From: Buttiauxella agrestis
GTDB lineage: Bacteria; Pseudomonadota; Gammaproteobacteria; Enterobacterales; Enterobacteriaceae
NCBI RefSeq assembly: GCF_900446255.1
Contig: NZ_UIGI01000001.1
Location: forward strand, 2,320,763-2,384,762
Length of the DNA: 64,000 nucleotides
Direction of reading: 5' to 3'
Shown: positions 38,091 through 45,793 of the stretch, piece after piece
Layout: each line of letters starts with the position of its first letter
Position numbering within the stretch: the stretch's first letter is position 1
Made by a program: the position numbers and the translations under genes
Notes under the pieces: model-generated
The model's database searches: none
The model's input: only the letters and a program-made list of their open reading frames with translations
What the model was told of the DNA's origin: nothing

Positions 38091-38753
38091 ATGGAACTGT
38101 ATTTAGACACTGCTGATGTAGCCGCAGTTAAACGCCTGGCGCGTGTTTTACCTTTACAAGGTGTTACCACAAACCCATCCATTGTTGCGAAAGCGGGTAT
38201 TTCGCTATGGGAAGTGCTGCCCGCGTTGCGGGAGGCATTAGGTGGCGACGGTAAACTGTTTGCTCAGGTTATTGCCGCGCAGGCTGATGAAATGGTGAAA
38301 GAGGCCGAGTTGTTGGTTAAGCGCGTGCCGGGCCTGGTCGTCAAAGTACCGACCACGGTAGAAGGCCTGGCGGCCATGAAACAATTGAAGGTTCTGGGGA
38401 TCCCAACGCTGGGTACGGCGGTTTATGGTGCCGCTCAAGGTTTACTAGCCGCGCTGGCGGGCGCTGAATATGTTGCTCCGTATGTGAATCGTCTTGATGC
38501 GCAGGGTGGAGATGGTATTCAAATGGTGCAGGATTTACAGCAGTTGCTGACGTTACACGCGCCGCAATCCAAAGTGCTTGCAGCCAGTTTCCGCACACCC
38601 CATCAGGCTATGTCATGCCTGCTGGCTGGTTGCGAAGCCATTACGTTACCGATTGATGTGACTGAACAGCTGTTAAGCACGCCAGCTGTGAATGCCGCCA
38701 TCGAGACTTTCGAAAAAGACTGGCAGGGTGCATTCGGTTCACTGAGTTTGTAA
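38091..38753 (+). CDS. fsaA: Fructose-6-phosphate aldolase (FSA, transaldolase family)
   Basis: A protein of 220 residues, the E. coli FsaA length. It begins [16 protein letters not shown] and has [13 protein letters not shown], the Schiff-base Lys in [12 protein letters not shown] (near residue 85), and [18 protein letters not shown]. It cleaves fructose 6-phosphate to dihydroxyacetone and glyceraldehyde 3-phosphate, or runs the reverse aldol reaction with dihydroxyacetone or hydroxyacetone. GGAGAG precedes the ATG. It is divergent from ybiY-ybiW; in E. coli K-12 fsaA is also next to ybiW/ybiY, so the whole block appears to be shared but placed elsewhere. Confidence 0.97.
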
Positions 38754-38777
38754 ATGGAAGTGATCGTTTAAAAGCAG

Positions 38778-38795
38778 CGCCGGTTCACACCGGCG
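38778..38795. terminator. Hairpin between fsaA and yciZ
   Basis: CGCCGGT-TCAC-ACCGGCG lies between convergent genes; a short T run (CTTTT) follows on the minus strand only. Confidence 0.6.
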
Positions 38796-38801
38796 TTAGA
38801 C

Positions 38802-38984
38802 TCAAATCTCCCAGGGTGACTTTTTCAAGTCGCTTTCTTTTTGTTCTTCGCCGTGCGCAATAGCGATTAATTCCGCTTTCAAAATTTCCAGATTATTAAT
38901 GGCGGAAGCGTGATCGCCACCCACCAGAATATCCAGCACAGTATCAATGCGTTTTGCGAGTTGCAGAGGGTTCACTGAAGGCAT
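38802..38984 (-). CDS. yciZ: YciZ (UPF0509) small protein
   Basis: A protein of 60 residues from ATG at 38984, preceded by AGGA; a longer frame to 39029 has no support. It carries the family core LAKRIDTVLDILVGGDHASA and INNLEILKAELIAIA and ends SPWEI. No function is established. In E. coli it lies between yciT and gmr, which here are separated by the fsaA block on one side and rpfF on the other. Confidence 0.9.
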   Translation of the reverse strand: MPSVNPLQLAKRIDTVLDILVGGDHASAINNLEILKAELIAIAHGEEQKESDLKKSPWEI

Positions 38985-39203
38985 TGTGCATCCTGTAATT
39001 ATTGGAAAAGTGTTGCCATCATAATGCAAAAAATGGCGCTAAAAGAGAAGGCGCAGACACGCTTTTTTAGCCTTACTCATCAATCAATTATCGAACAATA
39101 TATAAGTAATAATTATTAAATCCCCTGACACATTCATACGTAAGCGGTAGTGGATTAGTCTGATCCTGCGTGTAACGCGCTTTCATAACATGAGGATAAG
39201 ATA

Positions 39204-40073
39204 ATGACAGTGATTAACCAACCGACTTGCAAATTGTTCACGGATACTTCTCGATTCACGCAATTGTCAGGATATTACGAAGCTGAACGCCGCACCGTGT
39301 GGATGATGCTCGGAGCACAGCCACGCCCTTGCTTCAATCACAAGTTGATTGAAGAAATTATGAACCTGCGTTACCTGGTTCAACAGGAGGGATTTGTCGT
39401 TGATTTCTGGGTGACTGGCTCACTGGTTCAGGGAATGTATAACACAGGCGGTGATTTAGGATTCTTTGTTGAATCCATTCAACAAGGGCGTCGTGAGGCA
39501 CTCCGTGCTTATGCGCGGGCTTGCGTTGATTGCGTTCATGCGGCTTCTCGTGGTTTTGATAGCGGTGCAATTAGCCTGGCTATGGTTGAAGGCAGCGCAT
39601 TAGGCGGCGGTTTTGAAGCGGCGCTCGCGCATCATTTTATTCTGGCGCAACGAGATGCTCGCCTCGGCTTCCCTGAAATTGCCTTCAATCTGTTCCCTGG
39701 AATGGGCGCTTATTCGCTGGTTGCTCGTCGTTCAGGCATGAAACTGGCAGAAGAGCTGATTTATAAAGGGGAGTCGCACACAGCCGAGTGGTATGAACAA
39801 TTTGGTTTGGTGGATCAGCTTTTCGAACCAGGGCAGGGATATCTCGCGACCCGGACGTTTATTGATACCCTGCAACCCAAACTGAACGGCGTGCGCGCTA
39901 TGCTGCGTGCCCGTCAGCGTGTTCTCCAGTTGCCGCGTGCGGAATTAATGGATATCACCGAGGACTGGGTTGATGCCGCATTTTGCCTTGAACCGAAGGA
40001 CATTGCGTATATGGAAAGATTGGTACAATTGCAAAACCGGCACACCGCCACGGGTTTGCGCAAAGCCAGCTAA
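39204..40073 (+). CDS. rpfF: RpfF-type diffusible signal factor synthase (crotonase family)
   Basis: A protein of 289 residues, the RpfF length. Crotonase fold with the RpfF signature: RRTVWMMLGAQPRPCFNHKL near the N-terminus, YNTGGDLGFFVE, VEGSALGGGFEAALAHHFIL and LGFPEIAFNLFPGMGAYSL. The two Glu in GGGFEAA and GFPEIA correspond to the two catalytic acids of RpfF, which dehydrates a 3-hydroxyacyl-ACP and releases the cis-2-unsaturated fatty acid signal. A GAGG site precedes the ATG. Its expected partner RpfR is Gmr (41568-43559), separated here by two genes and a gmr relic. E. coli K-12 lacks this gene. Confidence 0.88.
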   Translation: MTVINQPTCKLFTDTSRFTQLSGYYEAERRTVWMMLGAQPRPCFNHKLIEEIMNLRYLVQQEGFVVDFWVTGSLVQGMYNTGGDLGFFVESIQQGRREALRAYARACVDCVHAASRGFDSGAISLAMVEGSALGGGFEAALAHHFILAQRDARLGFPEIAFNLFPGMGAYSLVARRSGMKLAEELIYKGESHTAEWYEQFGLVDQLFEPGQGYLATRTFIDTLQPKLNGVRAMLRARQRVLQLPRAELMDITEDWVDAAFCLEPKDIAYMERLVQLQNRHTATGLRKAS

Positions 40074-40082
40074 CCGCGCCAC

Positions 40083-40173
40083 TAACGCTCTAATATGGCT
40101 GCGGGCAATGGTTTAGTTAACTTCTGACTCAGCCATCTGTTGACGCCATTCTCGCAAAGAAGGCGTCTTCTTT
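40083..40173 (-). pseudogene. Relic of the 3' end of gmr
   Basis: This stretch aligns with the real gmr 3' end at 41602-41693. By hand I count about 69 identical of 92 aligned columns, ungapped over the first 68 and then with a one-base deletion that shifts frame. Shared runs include TTGACGCCATTC and AGGCGTCTTCTTT. It encodes the counterpart of the last 35 or so codons of Gmr with in-frame stops. It lies between the rpfF and lysR stop codons in the same orientation as gmr. Confidence 0.85.
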
Positions 40174-40181
40174 CACTCAAC

Positions 40182-41081
40182 CTACTGTTTCTGTGCCCGA
40201 ACCAGCTCAAGGAAGAAGAGCAACGCAGGGGACAGATTTTCCTTCGACCATGCGACAGCAATTCCCATCGACAAACGCTTCGTATCTTCCTTCAACTTCC
40301 GAAAAACCACCCCTTGCCTTTTGATGCACTGCAAAGAGGATGGAACCAAAGCGATGCCTTTGCCTTCGGCAATTAGCCCCAGCATGATGTGGTGATCTGG
40401 CGGCTCTGCAATCGCGTTTAGCTTAAAATCGATGCTTTGGAAAAACCTCTGACAATGATCATAAAAGCCAGGATTCATGCGCCGCTCAAACCAGAACATC
40501 GGCTCTTCGCGCAGGTTATCGAAAGAAATACTGCGTTTGGCGGCAAGCTTATGACCCGCAGGTAAAGCCACAACAAGGGGATCGTCGATAATTTTCTCAA
40601 CCGCCAGATCCTGCGTTTCGGTGTGCAAACCTACAAACGCTACATCCATTGTGCCGTTCTTCACTTCGCGAACCAGATTAACTAAATAATTTCCCTTTGA
40701 GAGAATTTGCCAGTCTGCAAAACGCTGCTGCATCTCTTGTGTCACATCAGGGATTGCGCTTCGTTCGAACACGGTGGTGTAGCCAACGATAAATTTCCCG
40801 GCATCAGTGCTCCGTTTCGATCTGGCGACGGCAATGGCTTTTTCTGCCTGAAGTAGCGTCTTTCTAACCTCGGGTAAAAATGCCGCACCGGCCTCAGTAA
40901 GCGTTACGCCACTCTTATGGCGATTAAACAACTGAACGCCGAGCTGCTCTTCAAGCTGATGAATTTGCCTGCTTAACGGTGGCTGCGAAATATGCATACG
41001 CAATGCCGCACGGCTGAAGTTGAGCTCTTCACAGACCGCGAGAAAGTAACGAAACTGGCGTAAATCGATAGATTCATTCAT
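40182..41081 (-). CDS. LysR-family transcriptional regulator
   Basis: A protein of 299 residues. The N-terminal winged helix is LRQFRYFLAVCEELNFSRAA to HQLEEQLGVQLFNRHKSG. The effector domain (about 90-299) includes GKFIVGYTTVFERSAIPDV and HHIMLGLIAEGKGIALVPSS, closest in style to the CatR/BenM/CbbR-like branch. It is divergent from a carboxymuconolactone decarboxylase-like gene with an 87-nt gap, the standard arrangement of a LysR regulator and its target. The effector is unknown, perhaps an aromatic or quinone compound given the neighbour. Not present at this locus in E. coli. Confidence 0.92.
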   Translation of the reverse strand: MNESIDLRQFRYFLAVCEELNFSRAALRMHISQPPLSRQIHQLEEQLGVQLFNRHKSGVTLTEAGAAFLPEVRKTLLQAEKAIAVARSKRSTDAGKFIVGYTTVFERSAIPDVTQEMQQRFADWQILSKGNYLVNLVREVKNGTMDVAFVGLHTETQDLAVEKIIDDPLVVALPAGHKLAAKRSISFDNLREEPMFWFERRMNPGFYDHCQRFFQSIDFKLNAIAEPPDHHIMLGLIAEGKGIALVPSSLQCIKRQGVVFRKLKEDTKRLSMGIAVAWSKENLSPALLFFLELVRAQKQ

Positions 41082-41108
41082 ACCAAAAAGGTATCACAAA
41101 AAGGGTAT
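41080..41108. promoter_or_regulatory. LysR-type operator between the LysR gene and the CMD gene
   Basis: ATACC-AAAAA-GGTAT (41080-41094) is a perfect inverted repeat with the T-N11-A pattern of LysR boxes. A second half, AAAAAGGGTAT, follows at 41098-41108. The first box overlaps the start codon of the LysR gene, which would suit autorepression. Confidence 0.65.
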
Positions 41109-41168
41109 TGGATGCATTGCCCGGCAGAATTTACAGTGCGTTCATCACACAACGTTAATGAATGAAAA

Positions 41169-41543
41169 ATGGAAAATGAACGCTATTTACGTGGGCTTGC
41201 GAAGTTAAAAGAAGTGGACGGTCACACCGGGGAAAACGTCATCAACAGCCTGAGCGACATCGCCCCAGATTTTGCCCGCCTGCTGATTGAATTTCCTTTT
41301 GGCGATATCTATTCAAGGCCGGGGCTGGATTTAAAGTCTCGTGAAATTGCGGTGGTTGCCGCACTTACCGCCCTGGGTAACGCCACACCACAACTCAAAG
41401 TGCATATCGAAGGTGCGCTTAATGTCGGCTGTACAGAGCAGGAAGTCATTGAGGTGATCATGCAGATGGCTGTTTACGCAGGGTTTCCTTGCGCACTGAA
41501 TGGGATATTTGCTGCTAAAGAGGTCTTTGCAAAAAGAAAATAG
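41169..41543 (+). CDS. Carboxymuconolactone decarboxylase (CMD) family protein
   Basis: A protein of 124 residues with the small all-helical CMD/AhpD fold: YSRPGLDLKSREIAVVAALT, then ALGNATPQLKVHIEGALNVG and CTEQEVIEVIMQMAVYAGFP. True AhpD peroxidases have a CxxC pair; here the single Cys residues are in VGCTEQ and FPCALNG, so a PcaC-like or redox-sensing role is equally possible. Divergent from the LysR gene that probably controls it. No other protocatechuate pathway gene is in the window. Confidence 0.88.
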   Translation: MENERYLRGLAKLKEVDGHTGENVINSLSDIAPDFARLLIEFPFGDIYSRPGLDLKSREIAVVAALTALGNATPQLKVHIEGALNVGCTEQEVIEVIMQMAVYAGFPCALNGIFAAKEVFAKRK

Positions 41544-41560
41544 CCAGGCTTGCCTGGCTA
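41541..41560 (-). terminator. gmr terminator
   Basis: TAGCCAGGC-TT-GCCTGGCTA is a perfect 9-bp stem. On the minus strand it is followed by TTTTCTTTTT, so it ends gmr transcripts; it overlaps the stop codon of the convergent CMD gene. Confidence 0.85.
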
Positions 41561-41567
41561 GATCAAA

Positions 41568-43559
41568 CTATCGCGCCGTTCTGGCAAGATATCGCTTTAA
41601 CCAACGCTCAAATACGGCGGCGGGCATCGGTTTAGCAAATAAATAACCCTGCCGTTCGTTGACGCCATTCTTCGTGAGAAAGGCGTCTTCTTTTTGGTTT
41701 TCAACACCTTCAGCAATCACCTGTAAATTCAGTGCCTGCGCAACGGCAACGATGGCTCGCACCAGCGATTGCGATACCGATTGTTTGTGAATGTCGCGAA
41801 CGAAACTTTGGTCGAGTTTAATGGCATCAATCGGAAAGCGCGCAAGCTGAGACAGCGAAGAATAACCGGTTCCAAAATCATCCAGATGCACCTGCGCACC
41901 CAAACGGCTGAATTGCTGGATAACGGAGAGGGCGAGTTCTTCGTTTTCAATCAGGCAGCTTTCGGTTAGTTCCACATCAATCGGGCAGTACTCAAAGTTG
42001 AGATCTTTCAACGCTTGCTTCAGATCGCTGAAGATAGTTTGATCCGCTAACTGGCGTGCAGAAACGTTCACCGCAACGCGCAAATTAATGCCTTTATCGC
42101 GCCATTTTGCCACTTGCTGAACCACACTCAGCATGACCCAACGGCCAAGCGGGACAATCAAACCGGACTCTTCAGCGTAAGAGATAAAATCCAGCGGTGG
42201 AATTAACCCGCGCTCCGGTGATTGCCAGCGCACCAGTGCTTCCAGACTGCGGACTTCGCCACGCCAGGTCATTTTCGGCTGATAGTGAATCACCAGTTGG
42301 TCGTTCTCCAGCGCTTTGCGCAGGTTGGTATCGAGCCACAAATATTCAAAAACACGCTGGTTCATCTCAGGCGAGAACACGCAGAATTTACCGCGGCCGC
42401 CCTCTTTGGCGGTATACATTGCGGTATCCGCATTCCGGATAACACTTTCTCTATCTTCACCATGCTGTGGTGCCAGCGAAATCCCTAATGAACAACCGGT
42501 GTAAACCTCAATCAGCCCAATGCGGAAAGGCTGTTTCAGGCGAGTCAGAATACGAGACGACATGGCTTCAAGTGCTGCCTGAGAAGTATCAGTTGCCAGA
42601 ACGATAAACTCATCGCCACCAAGGCGCGCCAGAATCTGCCCTTCATCAAGGCAACTGAGAATGGCCAGCGACACCGCCTGTAACAGCTGATCGCCGAACA
42701 TGTGCCCGTAGGCGTCATTCACTTTTTTAAAGTTATCGAGATCAAGATAAACAATGCCCACTTGAGTATCAGCGCGATTCTCAATGGCAGCAGTGATTAA
42801 GTCGTTGATGGCATTGCGATTGGGGAGGCCAGTGATGGTATCGGTATTCGCCAGCACACGCAGTCGCTCCTGAGCGCGGCGTTCTTCGGTAATGTCAGTA
42901 CCCGAACAAATCAGATAGATTTCGTTTTTGCCGCTGCCACTGTGGACGAATTTATTGCGAAACAAAAAAAGGCGCTGGCCTTTACGGGTTTTTACCCAAC
43001 GCTCGACCTCATAAGAATTCCCGTTACGGAAGAAGCCGCTGATATTTCGTTTCGAAGCGGCAGCCTCGCTGCGGCTCATAAAAAGTTTAAAGACGTTTTG
43101 GCCAATGACTTCTTGTTCTTTCAGTCCGGTATATTCTTCGCTCAAGCGATTGAAACGCTGAATATTCCCCAGGCGGTCAAGAATCACGATGACCGAATTT
43201 GCCTCGGAAACGACCTGCTCGGCAAAGGAGAGTCCCTGAACCAAATCGCGCGCGACAGAAGGGGTGTCATTCCAGGCGGATGCCGTGCCAGCCCACTCTT
43301 TCTTCGAGACTTTGCGCCCCACCAAATGCACAGGAATCTCACTGCCGAACAGTGAAATAGAGAGCGTGACGCTGGAGGTGATAACCGTCATCTGGCGGAT
43401 TTGGTCTGCCTGCTCTGGCTCAAGAGCTACGACCTGGCTGACGTCTGAACTTTCGCTTGCTGCTAATTGCAACGCATTGCTATCGTTCGGCAAACGCCAG
43501 TATGGGCTGGTTGTCCCTAAATAACGGTAGAGCAGATTCTGCTCCAAATCGTCTTTCAT
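41568..43559 (-). CDS. gmr: Gmr/PdeR (RpfR orthologue), PAS-GGDEF-EAL cyclic-di-GMP enzyme
   Basis: A protein of 663 residues (661 in E. coli). An N-terminal region of about 100 residues, [20 protein letters not shown] onward, corresponds to the RpfF-interaction domain of RpfR. A PAS domain ([15 protein letters not shown] to [11 protein letters not shown]) follows, then GGDEF with an intact [11 protein letters not shown], and EAL with SLEALVRW and [10 protein letters not shown]. In E. coli it is a c-di-GMP phosphodiesterase and trigger enzyme in curli control; in Cronobacter and Burkholderia the RpfR form binds the DSF signal in its PAS domain. Both catalytic motifs look intact. Confidence 0.95.
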
Positions 43560-43601
43560 GCTCTCTCCTGAACGGGGCCGACATAGCGTGCCAGTCTCTG
43601 A

Positions 43602-43620
43602 TTTATATTAGCAATATAAA
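43602..43620. promoter_or_regulatory. Perfect AT-rich palindrome upstream of gmr
   Basis: TTTATATT-AGC-AATATAAA lies 42 nt before the gmr ATG, where a promoter or operator would be. The rest of 43560-43800 is AT-rich and shows no gene. Confidence 0.4.
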
Positions 43621-43807
43621 ACCGATCTTAAAGTGACAACCGTGAGTAAAAGACATTGTTTTTGCAGAAGATGTGAGAAATCTGAATCTTCGCCTTTAGA
43701 TTGGTGACTTTCCCTGAGTAAAACCGGTAAAAAAAGAGTCATAACGCTAATCATTTCCCAGTTGTGATTATTAACTGTAAATCAGTAACCGTGAAAGAAA
43801 ACAAAAA

Positions 43808-43836
43808 AAAAGCTGAACATAAAGTTCAGCTTTTTA
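43808..43836 (-). terminator. rnb terminator
   Basis: On the minus strand AAAAAGCTGAAC is followed by GTTCAGCT and a long T run, 23 nt after the rnb stop. Confidence 0.92.
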
Positions 43837-43858
43837 ACGATGGTTCACAAACTTGATA

Positions 43859-45793
43859 TCAGGCAGCGGGGCGAGCGATCACGCTGCGTGTTTCCATACG
43901 AACTTCCGCGATGGTGACATCAATCACGTCAGTGACTTTGTAAGCCACTTCGCCTTTGATTTGCACAGTGCCTAATTCCTGGCTGCACACCATTTCATCA
44001 CGCACTGAGTGAATAAATGGGGCAGGGATAAAGGCAACCGCACCGTTATCAATCAGGCGAACACGCATTCCGCCACGGCTGACATCAATAATCTCTGCGG
44101 CAAATTTGGTATCCGTTCCCGCTTTATCTTGCAGGAAACGAGCATACAGCCAGTCGCCAACATCACGTTCAGCCATGCGGTTCAGACGGCGGCGTTCTGC
44201 CATTTGTACCGTAATTTCATCTTGTGGACGTGATGCCGTTTCACCTTTGATGATCGCTTTTAGCAGGCGATGGTTAATCATATCGCCGTATTTACGAATC
44301 GGTGAAGTCCAGGTGGCGTAAGCTTCCAGACCCAAACCGTAGTGCGGACCCGGTTCGGTGCTGATTTCAGCAAACGACTGATAACGACGAATACGGCTAT
44401 CAAGGAAACCGGTTGGTTGCGCGTCGAGTTCACGGCGCAACTTGCAGAAGCCGTTAAGCGTCAGCACTTCTTGCGCGTTAACCTCAAGGCCATGGCCTTG
44501 TAGCATTGTGGCAAGTTGTTCGATGTTTGCCGGGTCAAAACCGGTGTGAACGTTATAAACGCCGAAACCAAGCTTTTCACGCAGCACGATTGCCGCACAG
44601 ACGTTTGCCGCAATCATTGATTCTTCTACGATGCGGTTAGCGATACGACGTGGCTCGGAAACGATATCCAGCACTTCGCCTTTCTCGCCTAATACAAAGC
44701 GGTAATCTGGGCGGTCTTTAAACACCAACGCGTGAGTGCGGCGCCAGTCAGCACGGCTCAGGCAAACACGCTCGAGCAGGCGAATTTGTTTAGCTATGGC
44801 GTCAGATGGTGGCTGCCAGTCGCCTTTTTCTTCTAACCAGTCGGACACATCGTCATATGCCAGTTTGGCTTTTGATTCGATGGTGGCGACAAAGAAGTTA
44901 ATCTCGCTCTCAATGCTACCGTCCTGCGCGATAACCATGCGGCAAGCCACAACAGGGCGCGTGACATTAGGGCGCAGCGAGCACAAATCGTCTGACAATT
45001 CGCGTGGCAGCATCGGGATGTTGAAGCCCGGCAGGTAGTTTGTGAAGGCGCGAACTTTCGCGATATCGTCAAGCTTGCTGCCTTCTTCAATCCAGGCGGT
45101 TGGATCGGCAATCGCGACGGTCAGTTGCAGTTTGCCGTCGGCAAGTTCTTCAACAAACAGCGCATCATCCATATCTTCGGTGCTGGCGCTATCAATGGTG
45201 ACAAAATCCAGGGCGGTTAAATCTTCACGCACCAGGCCTTCGTCGAGCATTTCAGTTGCTACGCCATTAGGCGCTTCGCGCTCAAGATTGTGACGTGACA
45301 GTGTCACCCACCATGGTGCAAGGTGATCGTCACCAGAGGTGATGAATTGAGTCAAATCAGCATAGAAACCGCGATCCCCTTTCAACGGATGGCGCTTCAT
45401 TTCTGCGACGGCCCAGTCACCATTCTGGAAATCATGGGTGACGTTACGGTCAGCTCGACACTGAATAGCATCGCGCAGTAATGGATGGTCTGGAACAATT
45501 GTCAGACGGTCGTCTTTACGTTGCACACGGCCAACAAACCGGCTGAGGAACGGTTCGATAAGCTCTTCTGGCTCAGCGGTTTCGCGGTCCTTTTCGGTAT
45601 GAATCACCGCGCTCACGCGGTCACCGTGCATCACTTTTTTCATCTGCGGTGGCGGAATAAAGTAACTTTTCTGGGAATCCACTTCGAGGAAGCCAAAGCC
45701 TTTTTCCGTGCCTTTAACCACACCTTCAACGCGTGGAGTTTGGGAATGCAGTTGCTGTTTAAGCTGCGCGAGCAGCGGATTATCCTGGAACAT
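43859..45793 (-). CDS. rnb: Ribonuclease II
   Basis: A protein of 644 residues, the E. coli length. Processive 3'-to-5' exoribonuclease for single-stranded RNA. Two cold-shock domains at the N-terminus, RNB catalytic domain with the four Asp in [20 protein letters not shown], the [23 protein letters not shown]-type block near residue 500 (start of the block [20 protein letters not shown]), and an S1 domain at the end ([20 protein letters not shown]). Its own terminator lies downstream. Confidence 0.98.

Follow-up and report, generated by a model that had tools for sequence, protein, structure and literature searches.

The stretch of Buttiauxella agrestis DNA analysed here, 64,000 nucleotides in all and called the window below, carries an rpfF-like gene of the crotonase family, a putative DSF/BDSF synthase gene (39204..40073, plus strand; an ORF with a match to Pfam ECH_1), and an intact gmr gene (rpfR/pdeR; 41568..43559, minus strand) whose PAS-GGDEF-EAL product scores 1295 bits against PRK10060 and is matched in Pfam. 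Between them lie a lysR-type regulator gene (40182..41081, minus strand; ORF with domain/family matches) and, divergent from it, a gene of the carboxymuconolactone decarboxylase family (CMD; 41169..41543, plus strand) that faces gmr. A strong terminator-like hairpin for gmr, TAGCCAGG/CCTGGCTA and then TTTTCTTTTT on the minus strand (41541..41560), overlaps the CMD stop. The rpfF-like product passes NCBIfam PRK08788 (410 bits, cut-off 177) and reaches 186 bits with the RpfF equivalog model NF053515, under its cut-off of 550; the name rpfF rests here on the paired rpfR/gmr and the convergent arrangement, and DSF synthesis is putative. The sequence-only reading that preceded this work called lysR and CMD foreign-looking, a description that composition hardly bears out: their GC content (0.49 each against 0.50 for the window) is ordinary, and we dropped foreign composition as a property of these genes.

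At the rpfF stop begins a relic of the gmr 3' end (40070..40173, no strand assigned), of which 40081-40173 is aligned and 40070-40080 was added by eye. Local alignment of 40081-40173 with the gmr tail at 41600-41693 gives 71 identical columns of 94 in the same orientation with a single gap one base long, so that the earlier hand count of 69 in 92 was nearly right. The alignment score of 71 lies far above the mean (16) and maximum (29) of 2000 dinucleotide shuffles, the comparison that the sequence-only reading had proposed, and the second-best match within the window scores 32; the relic is real. By eye the homology starts at the rpfF stop itself, where CTAACCGCGCC from 40070 corresponds to CTATCGCGCC from 41568, and beyond this matched piece about 22 nt are deleted from the relic. 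Stops interrupt the relic when it is read on the gmr strand, as had been claimed of its disabled frame, and homology beyond chance together with that frame marks it as a truncated duplicate of gmr. A nucleotide profile built on the gmr tails of 49 convergent loci, with the convergent L150, L166 and L169 left out, finds the window relic with an E value of 2.5e-14, against 0.67 for the best of 1758 control pieces. The nearest genome examined (G001), which has 40% of sampled 31-letter words in common with the window, carries the relic at 97%.

Within the relic we find a GC-rich stem-loop followed by a T-rich tract, the two sequence hallmarks of an intrinsic terminator downstream of rpfF. This proposed rpfF terminator (40142..40173, plus strand) has the pattern GACGCC-N14-GGCGTC-TTCTTT, with the stem GACGCC/GGCGTC at 40142-40167, 68 nt from rpfF, and the tract TTCTTT directly after it at 40168-40173. 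The 34-nt fold has an energy of -13.1 kcal/mol (z -3.4, matched by one shuffle in 200), the stem carries a one-base bulge and the tract is imperfect. A simple terminator scan did not list this hairpin, and a scan of the window for its best terminator-like site chose a hairpin within lysR coding DNA; the relic hairpin was examined directly afterwards. Its parental counterpart, a hairpin with T tract at 41661..41695 on the plus strand, lies antisense within gmr codons 623-633, where it here faces CMD, and the relic hairpin folds no better than this embedded one (-13.1 vs -14.5 kcal/mol). The T tract of the embedded hairpin is present in the rpfF direction only. Bidirectional terminators, with convergent genes sharing terminator regions, were reportedly described by Ju et al. 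in 2019; unlike those, the tract of the embedded rpfF hairpin would serve one direction. The sequence-only reading had seen the relic as the junction of a split, which stands, and had missed the terminator hairpin for rpfF inside it.

We give almost no credence to the idea that the element is a dispersed REP-like repeat or a chance similarity. It is short and palindromic, as such an element would be, but the alignment extends beyond the hairpin, Rfam reports nothing at gathering level across 38500-44000, and the hairpin and T-tract pattern occurs at only two places in the window, the relic and gmr, where 0.01 is expected. In four Buttiauxella genomes it occurs once or twice per genome, with one extra place in G010, too rarely for a repeat family, which we rejected.

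The convergent pair and the codons of the gmr tail

To place the relic we surveyed RpfF loci, the best 80 of 292 matched, in named genomes. These 80 include nine named Buttiauxella species (L104-L112), ten Erwinia or Pantoea (L174-L183) and one locus, L171, with no gmr near rpfF; in the remaining 60 the two genes are directly convergent in 52 and separated in eight. The stop codons of rpfF and gmr overlap by exactly 4 nt in 52 of the 52 convergent Enterobacteriaceae loci analysed. Among 12 Buttiauxella genomes examined, three are directly convergent (G010, G011, G012), seven have lysR-CMD between rpfF and gmr (G001, G003, G004, G005, G006, G008, G009), and G007 has a fimbrial operon in place of lysR/CMD, with a relic also present; G002 lacks rpfF and shows a pflD-fsa scar. 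The window is thus an eighth Buttiauxella case of lysR-CMD. Given the invariant 4-nt overlap, the ancestral order proposed in the sequence-only reading, with rpfF and gmr directly convergent, holds; the relatives with rpfF directly beside gmr that it had suggested seeking exist, three of the 11 rpfF-bearing Buttiauxella genomes among them, and the relic begins at the rpfF stop.

Some records in this survey deserve a remark. L104 and L109 are both titled Buttiauxella agrestis ATCC 33320, and this locus clearly marks them as different species (identity of RpfF to that of the window 99% and 96%); L109 is flagged UNVERIFIED_ORG and is probably mislabelled. L155, titled Chryseobacterium sp. 18061, is a typical enterobacterial rpfF-gmr locus and probably a contaminant or a wrong label. 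A second RpfF-like gene, 71% identical, lies elsewhere in one genome (G012:C1:4151204-4152064).

In 49 of the 52 convergent Enterobacteriaceae loci, and in three of three convergent Buttiauxella, the best terminator-like site is this same hairpin, 89 nt past the rpfF stop and antisense in gmr. The genes overlap convergently and the hairpin and tract lie inside the partner's ORF, which is the arrangement of an embedded terminator. In a scan of synonymous conservation across 55 convergent loci, codons 623-633 of gmr rank first of 648 windows and contain seven of the 14 near-invariant codon sites of the gene; the same codons rank 149 of 638 in 29 loci with rpfF absent or apart, and 287 of 595 in 12 loci without rpfF. 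All four stem codons (GAC GCC GGC GTC) are present in 53 of 55 convergent loci, where twelve random sets of D/A/G/V codons, taken as controls, reach 1 to 8 of 55. In separated loci the four codons are found in one of eight outside Buttiauxella and in seven of nine Buttiauxella, and without rpfF in 2 of 12, the same four amino acids being kept in 7 of 12. Across ten phylogenetically independent pairs, taken on a gmr tree from codons 1-610, the stem follows adjacency in a mean of 6.7 pairs and opposes it in 0 (median p 0.016), figures that become 7.8 and 0 (p 0.008) when the U-tract codons are included. Synonymous scan, controls and independent pairs together point to selection on the hairpin beyond the protein, and these codon comparisons tie the constraint in gmr to the adjacency of rpfF.

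Held-out loci behave in the same way, with the hairpin in nine of ten rows that have the 4-nt overlap and a close gmr tail; in 15 held-out rows with distant gmr tails there is no such hairpin. In E. coli, pdeR is faced by ymiD and the stem is absent. There are exceptions: the convergent loci L150 and L166 lack the stem codons, held-out L084 lacks the pattern, and L063 (G002) and L184 keep all four stem codons without rpfF. The ten Erwiniaceae loci have rpfF and gmr close together with no such hairpin and none of the ten has the four stem codons; the Erwiniaceae protein differs there. A reciprocal gmr terminator inside the rpfF tail was also considered and rejected, none being consistently placed on the minus strand.

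It could be argued that the conserved hairpin serves the gmr mRNA, in stability or translation, and not rpfF. A perfect inverted repeat does fold on both strands, but the T tract is on the rpfF strand, the codon constraint follows rpfF adjacency, and once the pair is split, hairpins of this type are retained next to rpfF while the gmr copy, outside Buttiauxella, mostly decays, so that we regard a role in the gmr mRNA as very improbable. We favour instead the reading that, in most Enterobacteriaceae with the pair, an intrinsic terminator of rpfF would lie inside the gmr coding sequence, antisense to it.

Copies of the hairpin freed from gmr

If the gmr tail is both coding sequence and rpfF terminator, it has two jobs, and a gene could therefore be inserted between the pair only after duplication of that tail. 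One copy would then complete gmr and the other would stay beside rpfF as terminator, the window relic being this second, rpfF-side copy. The freed copy would escape the coding constraint, and a constraint of this kind is visible at stem position 7: codons 627 (F627) and 631 (N631) end in a pyrimidine, so that two purines oppose each other there in 55 of 55 embedded copies. Of the 16 freed copies, 11 have position 7 paired, against none of the 55 embedded ones (Fisher 1.7e-9, a value that ignores kinship, nine of the 16 freed copies being from Buttiauxella); the 16 leave out L153, L168 and L171, which have other hairpins, of another type, beside rpfF. In the window and G001 a one-base deletion removes one of the two mismatched purines and leaves the bulge, and the freed hairpin of G005 has a 13-pair stem with T7; that of G006 has a poor T tract. 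In these comparisons the stem is repaired in freed copies, which would often gain pairs once released.

Searched with the gmr-tail profile, 18 separated intergenic stretches yield 11 with a relic at E 0.002 or lower: eight in Buttiauxella (the window, G001, G003, G004, G006, G007, G008 and G009) and three outside it, in Dryocola (L114), Pluralibacter (L146) and a MAG (L119). By the same profile G005 reaches only E 0.8, and L118, L120, L121, L153, L168 and L171 are not found. Hairpins of the relic type are nonetheless present in L118, L120, L121 and G092, and for L118, L120, L121 and G005 the hairpin type is the only pointer to descent from a gmr tail. The genes that separate the pair vary. L146 carries two DUF5862 ORFs, one with a sub-threshold Bacteriocin_IIc match; G092 carries waaY; G007 has five fimbrial-type ORFs, two of which were checked in Pfam and gave fimbrial and usher domains. 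No cargo gene is seen between rpfF and gmr in L119, L120, L121, L153 and L168, and in L119 a relic-type hairpin occupies a spacer of 85 nt. Where other cargo has come between the two genes, rpfF usually still has a hairpin of the relic type next to it.

As observations in their own right, the two DUF5862 ORFs (L146 8194-8928) are similar to each other and have short double-glycine-type leaders, possibly marking peptide toxins or bacteriocins. G092 has a 97-aa membrane-protein-like ORF (L191 14636-14929), the end of which, by eye, seems to recur as remnants in the rpfF-gmr spacers of L114 and L118.

Could the relic be neutral debris, the functionless remains of an insertion or a duplication? 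It is indeed frameshifted over most of its length, with stops, and shortened to different lengths in different species, and little of it remains in G005 and G006. But what each of the freed copies examined retains is the hairpin and T tract, the pairing gained at position 7 is one that coding forbids, and several genera whose cargo differs again have relics or comparable hairpins next to rpfF. We therefore consider debris improbable; the relic looks functional. It probably survives for its rpfF transcription stop signal, an intrinsic-terminator hairpin inside it being the likely reason that it was kept, and decay by frameshift, stops and deletion would have struck everything but the hairpin and its T tract. 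Our main explanation, that rpfF has a terminator embedded in gmr and that the relic is a duplicated gmr tail retained as that terminator, we hold with good confidence; we infer the termination event and the duplication step from the sequence comparisons.

Parts of this picture have precedents. According to passages of PMC2174442, an overlap between convergent genes forces rho-independent terminators into the coding region of the partner, and of 116 E. coli genes in such overlaps 23 have one, so the kind itself is already known; those passages do not treat rpfF/gmr, any codon constraint that depends on adjacency, or relics that outlast a split. The tail-to-tail Enterobacteriaceae genes mscL and arfA are a similar convergent pair, with a stem-loop in the partner's coding end: the stem-loop lies in the arfA 3' coding sequence, into which the mscL 3' UTR extends, and the spacing of the two genes varies among species (PMC10070815, in part). 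Unlike the case here, that pair is treated in the portions of PMC10070815 used here as antisense RNA control, with no retained tail relic. Convergent transcription of rpfF and rpfR, conserved in several genera, is reported in PMC6361424 and PMC4698668, in whose main texts the word 'terminator' is absent. A literature search that reached few subscription papers found no publication joining rpfF, terminator and gmr, and nothing on this subject for Buttiauxella with rpfF. Terminators in convergent partners are a known kind; the retained, repaired tail copy and the linked release of codons would be the new part.

The split and the genes that occupy it

The fimbrial operon of G007, accompanied by a relic, upholds the claim of the sequence-only reading that the relic marks the split of the rpfF/gmr pair. 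That lysR/CMD brought or caused the tail duplication is not borne out: L119 is split without a cargo gene, and the lysR and rnb trees conflict. G005, the window and G001 form a clade in the rnb tree (support 100/99) that the lysR tree rejects (AU test, p 0.006; the clade was taken from other genes, but after the first lysR tree had been seen). The cargo may therefore have been exchanged, gained more than once, or moved in later. The directly convergent G011 and G012 are sisters of G009, which has lysR/CMD, in trees whose deeper branches are weak (in the rnb tree, G011 only), a pattern that either repeated insertion or restoration of the direct order could give.

Islands that integrate at gene 3' ends leave an intact gene at one end and a displaced gene tail at the other. 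An older form of the import reading takes the insert for such an integrase-made island with a repeated gene end, and a gene end is repeated at the far side here; unlike such islands, the insert consists of lysR and CMD only, with no integrase ORF or other recombinase gene, the five ORFs of the G007 insert are likewise of fimbrial type, and the repeat is also found with other cargo or none. In its present form this alternative has lysR/CMD arrive on DNA with its own gmr tail, recombine in gmr and leave the old tail beside rpfF in the same step, the version of the sequence-only reading. The cargo does lie between two direct repeats, the relic and the intact tail; the lysR tree disagrees with that of rnb, and lysR-CMD pairs exist elsewhere in other genera: of 17 CMD loci from outside Buttiauxella, nine have a LysR match next to CMD. 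On the other side, gmr is found in 12 of those 17 genomes and never adjoins CMD (in the other five no gmr reaches the limit), no integrase ORF lies between relic and gmr, the last 632 nt of gmr give trees that broadly follow the rest of the gene, with weak support, and L119 is split without cargo. We think import of this kind possible and lean against it.

Beyond the window, our account suggests something broader, which we offer as a tentative proposal that comes near to an even chance and falls short of it: embedded terminators would lock convergent pairs, which open only by tail duplication and so leave functional relics, after which varied cargo enters and the terminator may be handed on. 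If true, 'empty' intergenic DNA should hold functional relics of gene tails as a predictable class, and the opened site would have taken lysR/CMD, a fimbrial operon, DUF5862 genes and waaY. Our main explanation by itself makes of the apparent fossil a dated natural experiment, in which the same DNA is held under coding plus terminator, terminator-only and coding-only constraint, so that comparison of the copies would show the demands of each job and explain the tight linkage of rpfF with its receptor gene. It also gives a rule for finding functional relics, namely to search split convergent pairs for a fragment of the former partner's tail, and a warning that synonymous sites in the receptor gene can control the end of a neighbour's mRNA.

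The hairpin left in gmr

After a split the gmr copy of the hairpin mostly decays, most Buttiauxella and L146 being exceptions. We suppose that gmr would lose the hairpin once no terminator-less gene faces it, and the neighbours of gmr suggest as much, under a rule formed partly after the data were seen: that a facing gene keeps the gmr stem. In both the window and G001 a 24-nt spacer separates gmr from the CMD gene facing it, which shows no evident terminator, and the gmr stem is kept. The CMD gene of G009 is followed by a strong hairpin (-20.7 kcal/mol) within a spacer of 65 nt, and here the gmr stem is broken. G003, G004, G005, G006 and G008 keep the stem even though a hairpin, its T tract weak, stands ahead of gmr. 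L146, with an ORF directed at gmr from a distance of 46 nt, keeps it too; in G007 and G092 the gene next to gmr has the same orientation as gmr and the stem is broken. The CMD gene of the window may thus use the gmr copy as its terminator, and if so a terminator left in a partner gene can pass to a newcomer. In L063 and L184 the stem is kept with no clear facing gene. The scar at the first of these (G002; L063 5440-5593) fuses the start of pflD to the end of fsa and has removed pflD, pflC and most of fsa.
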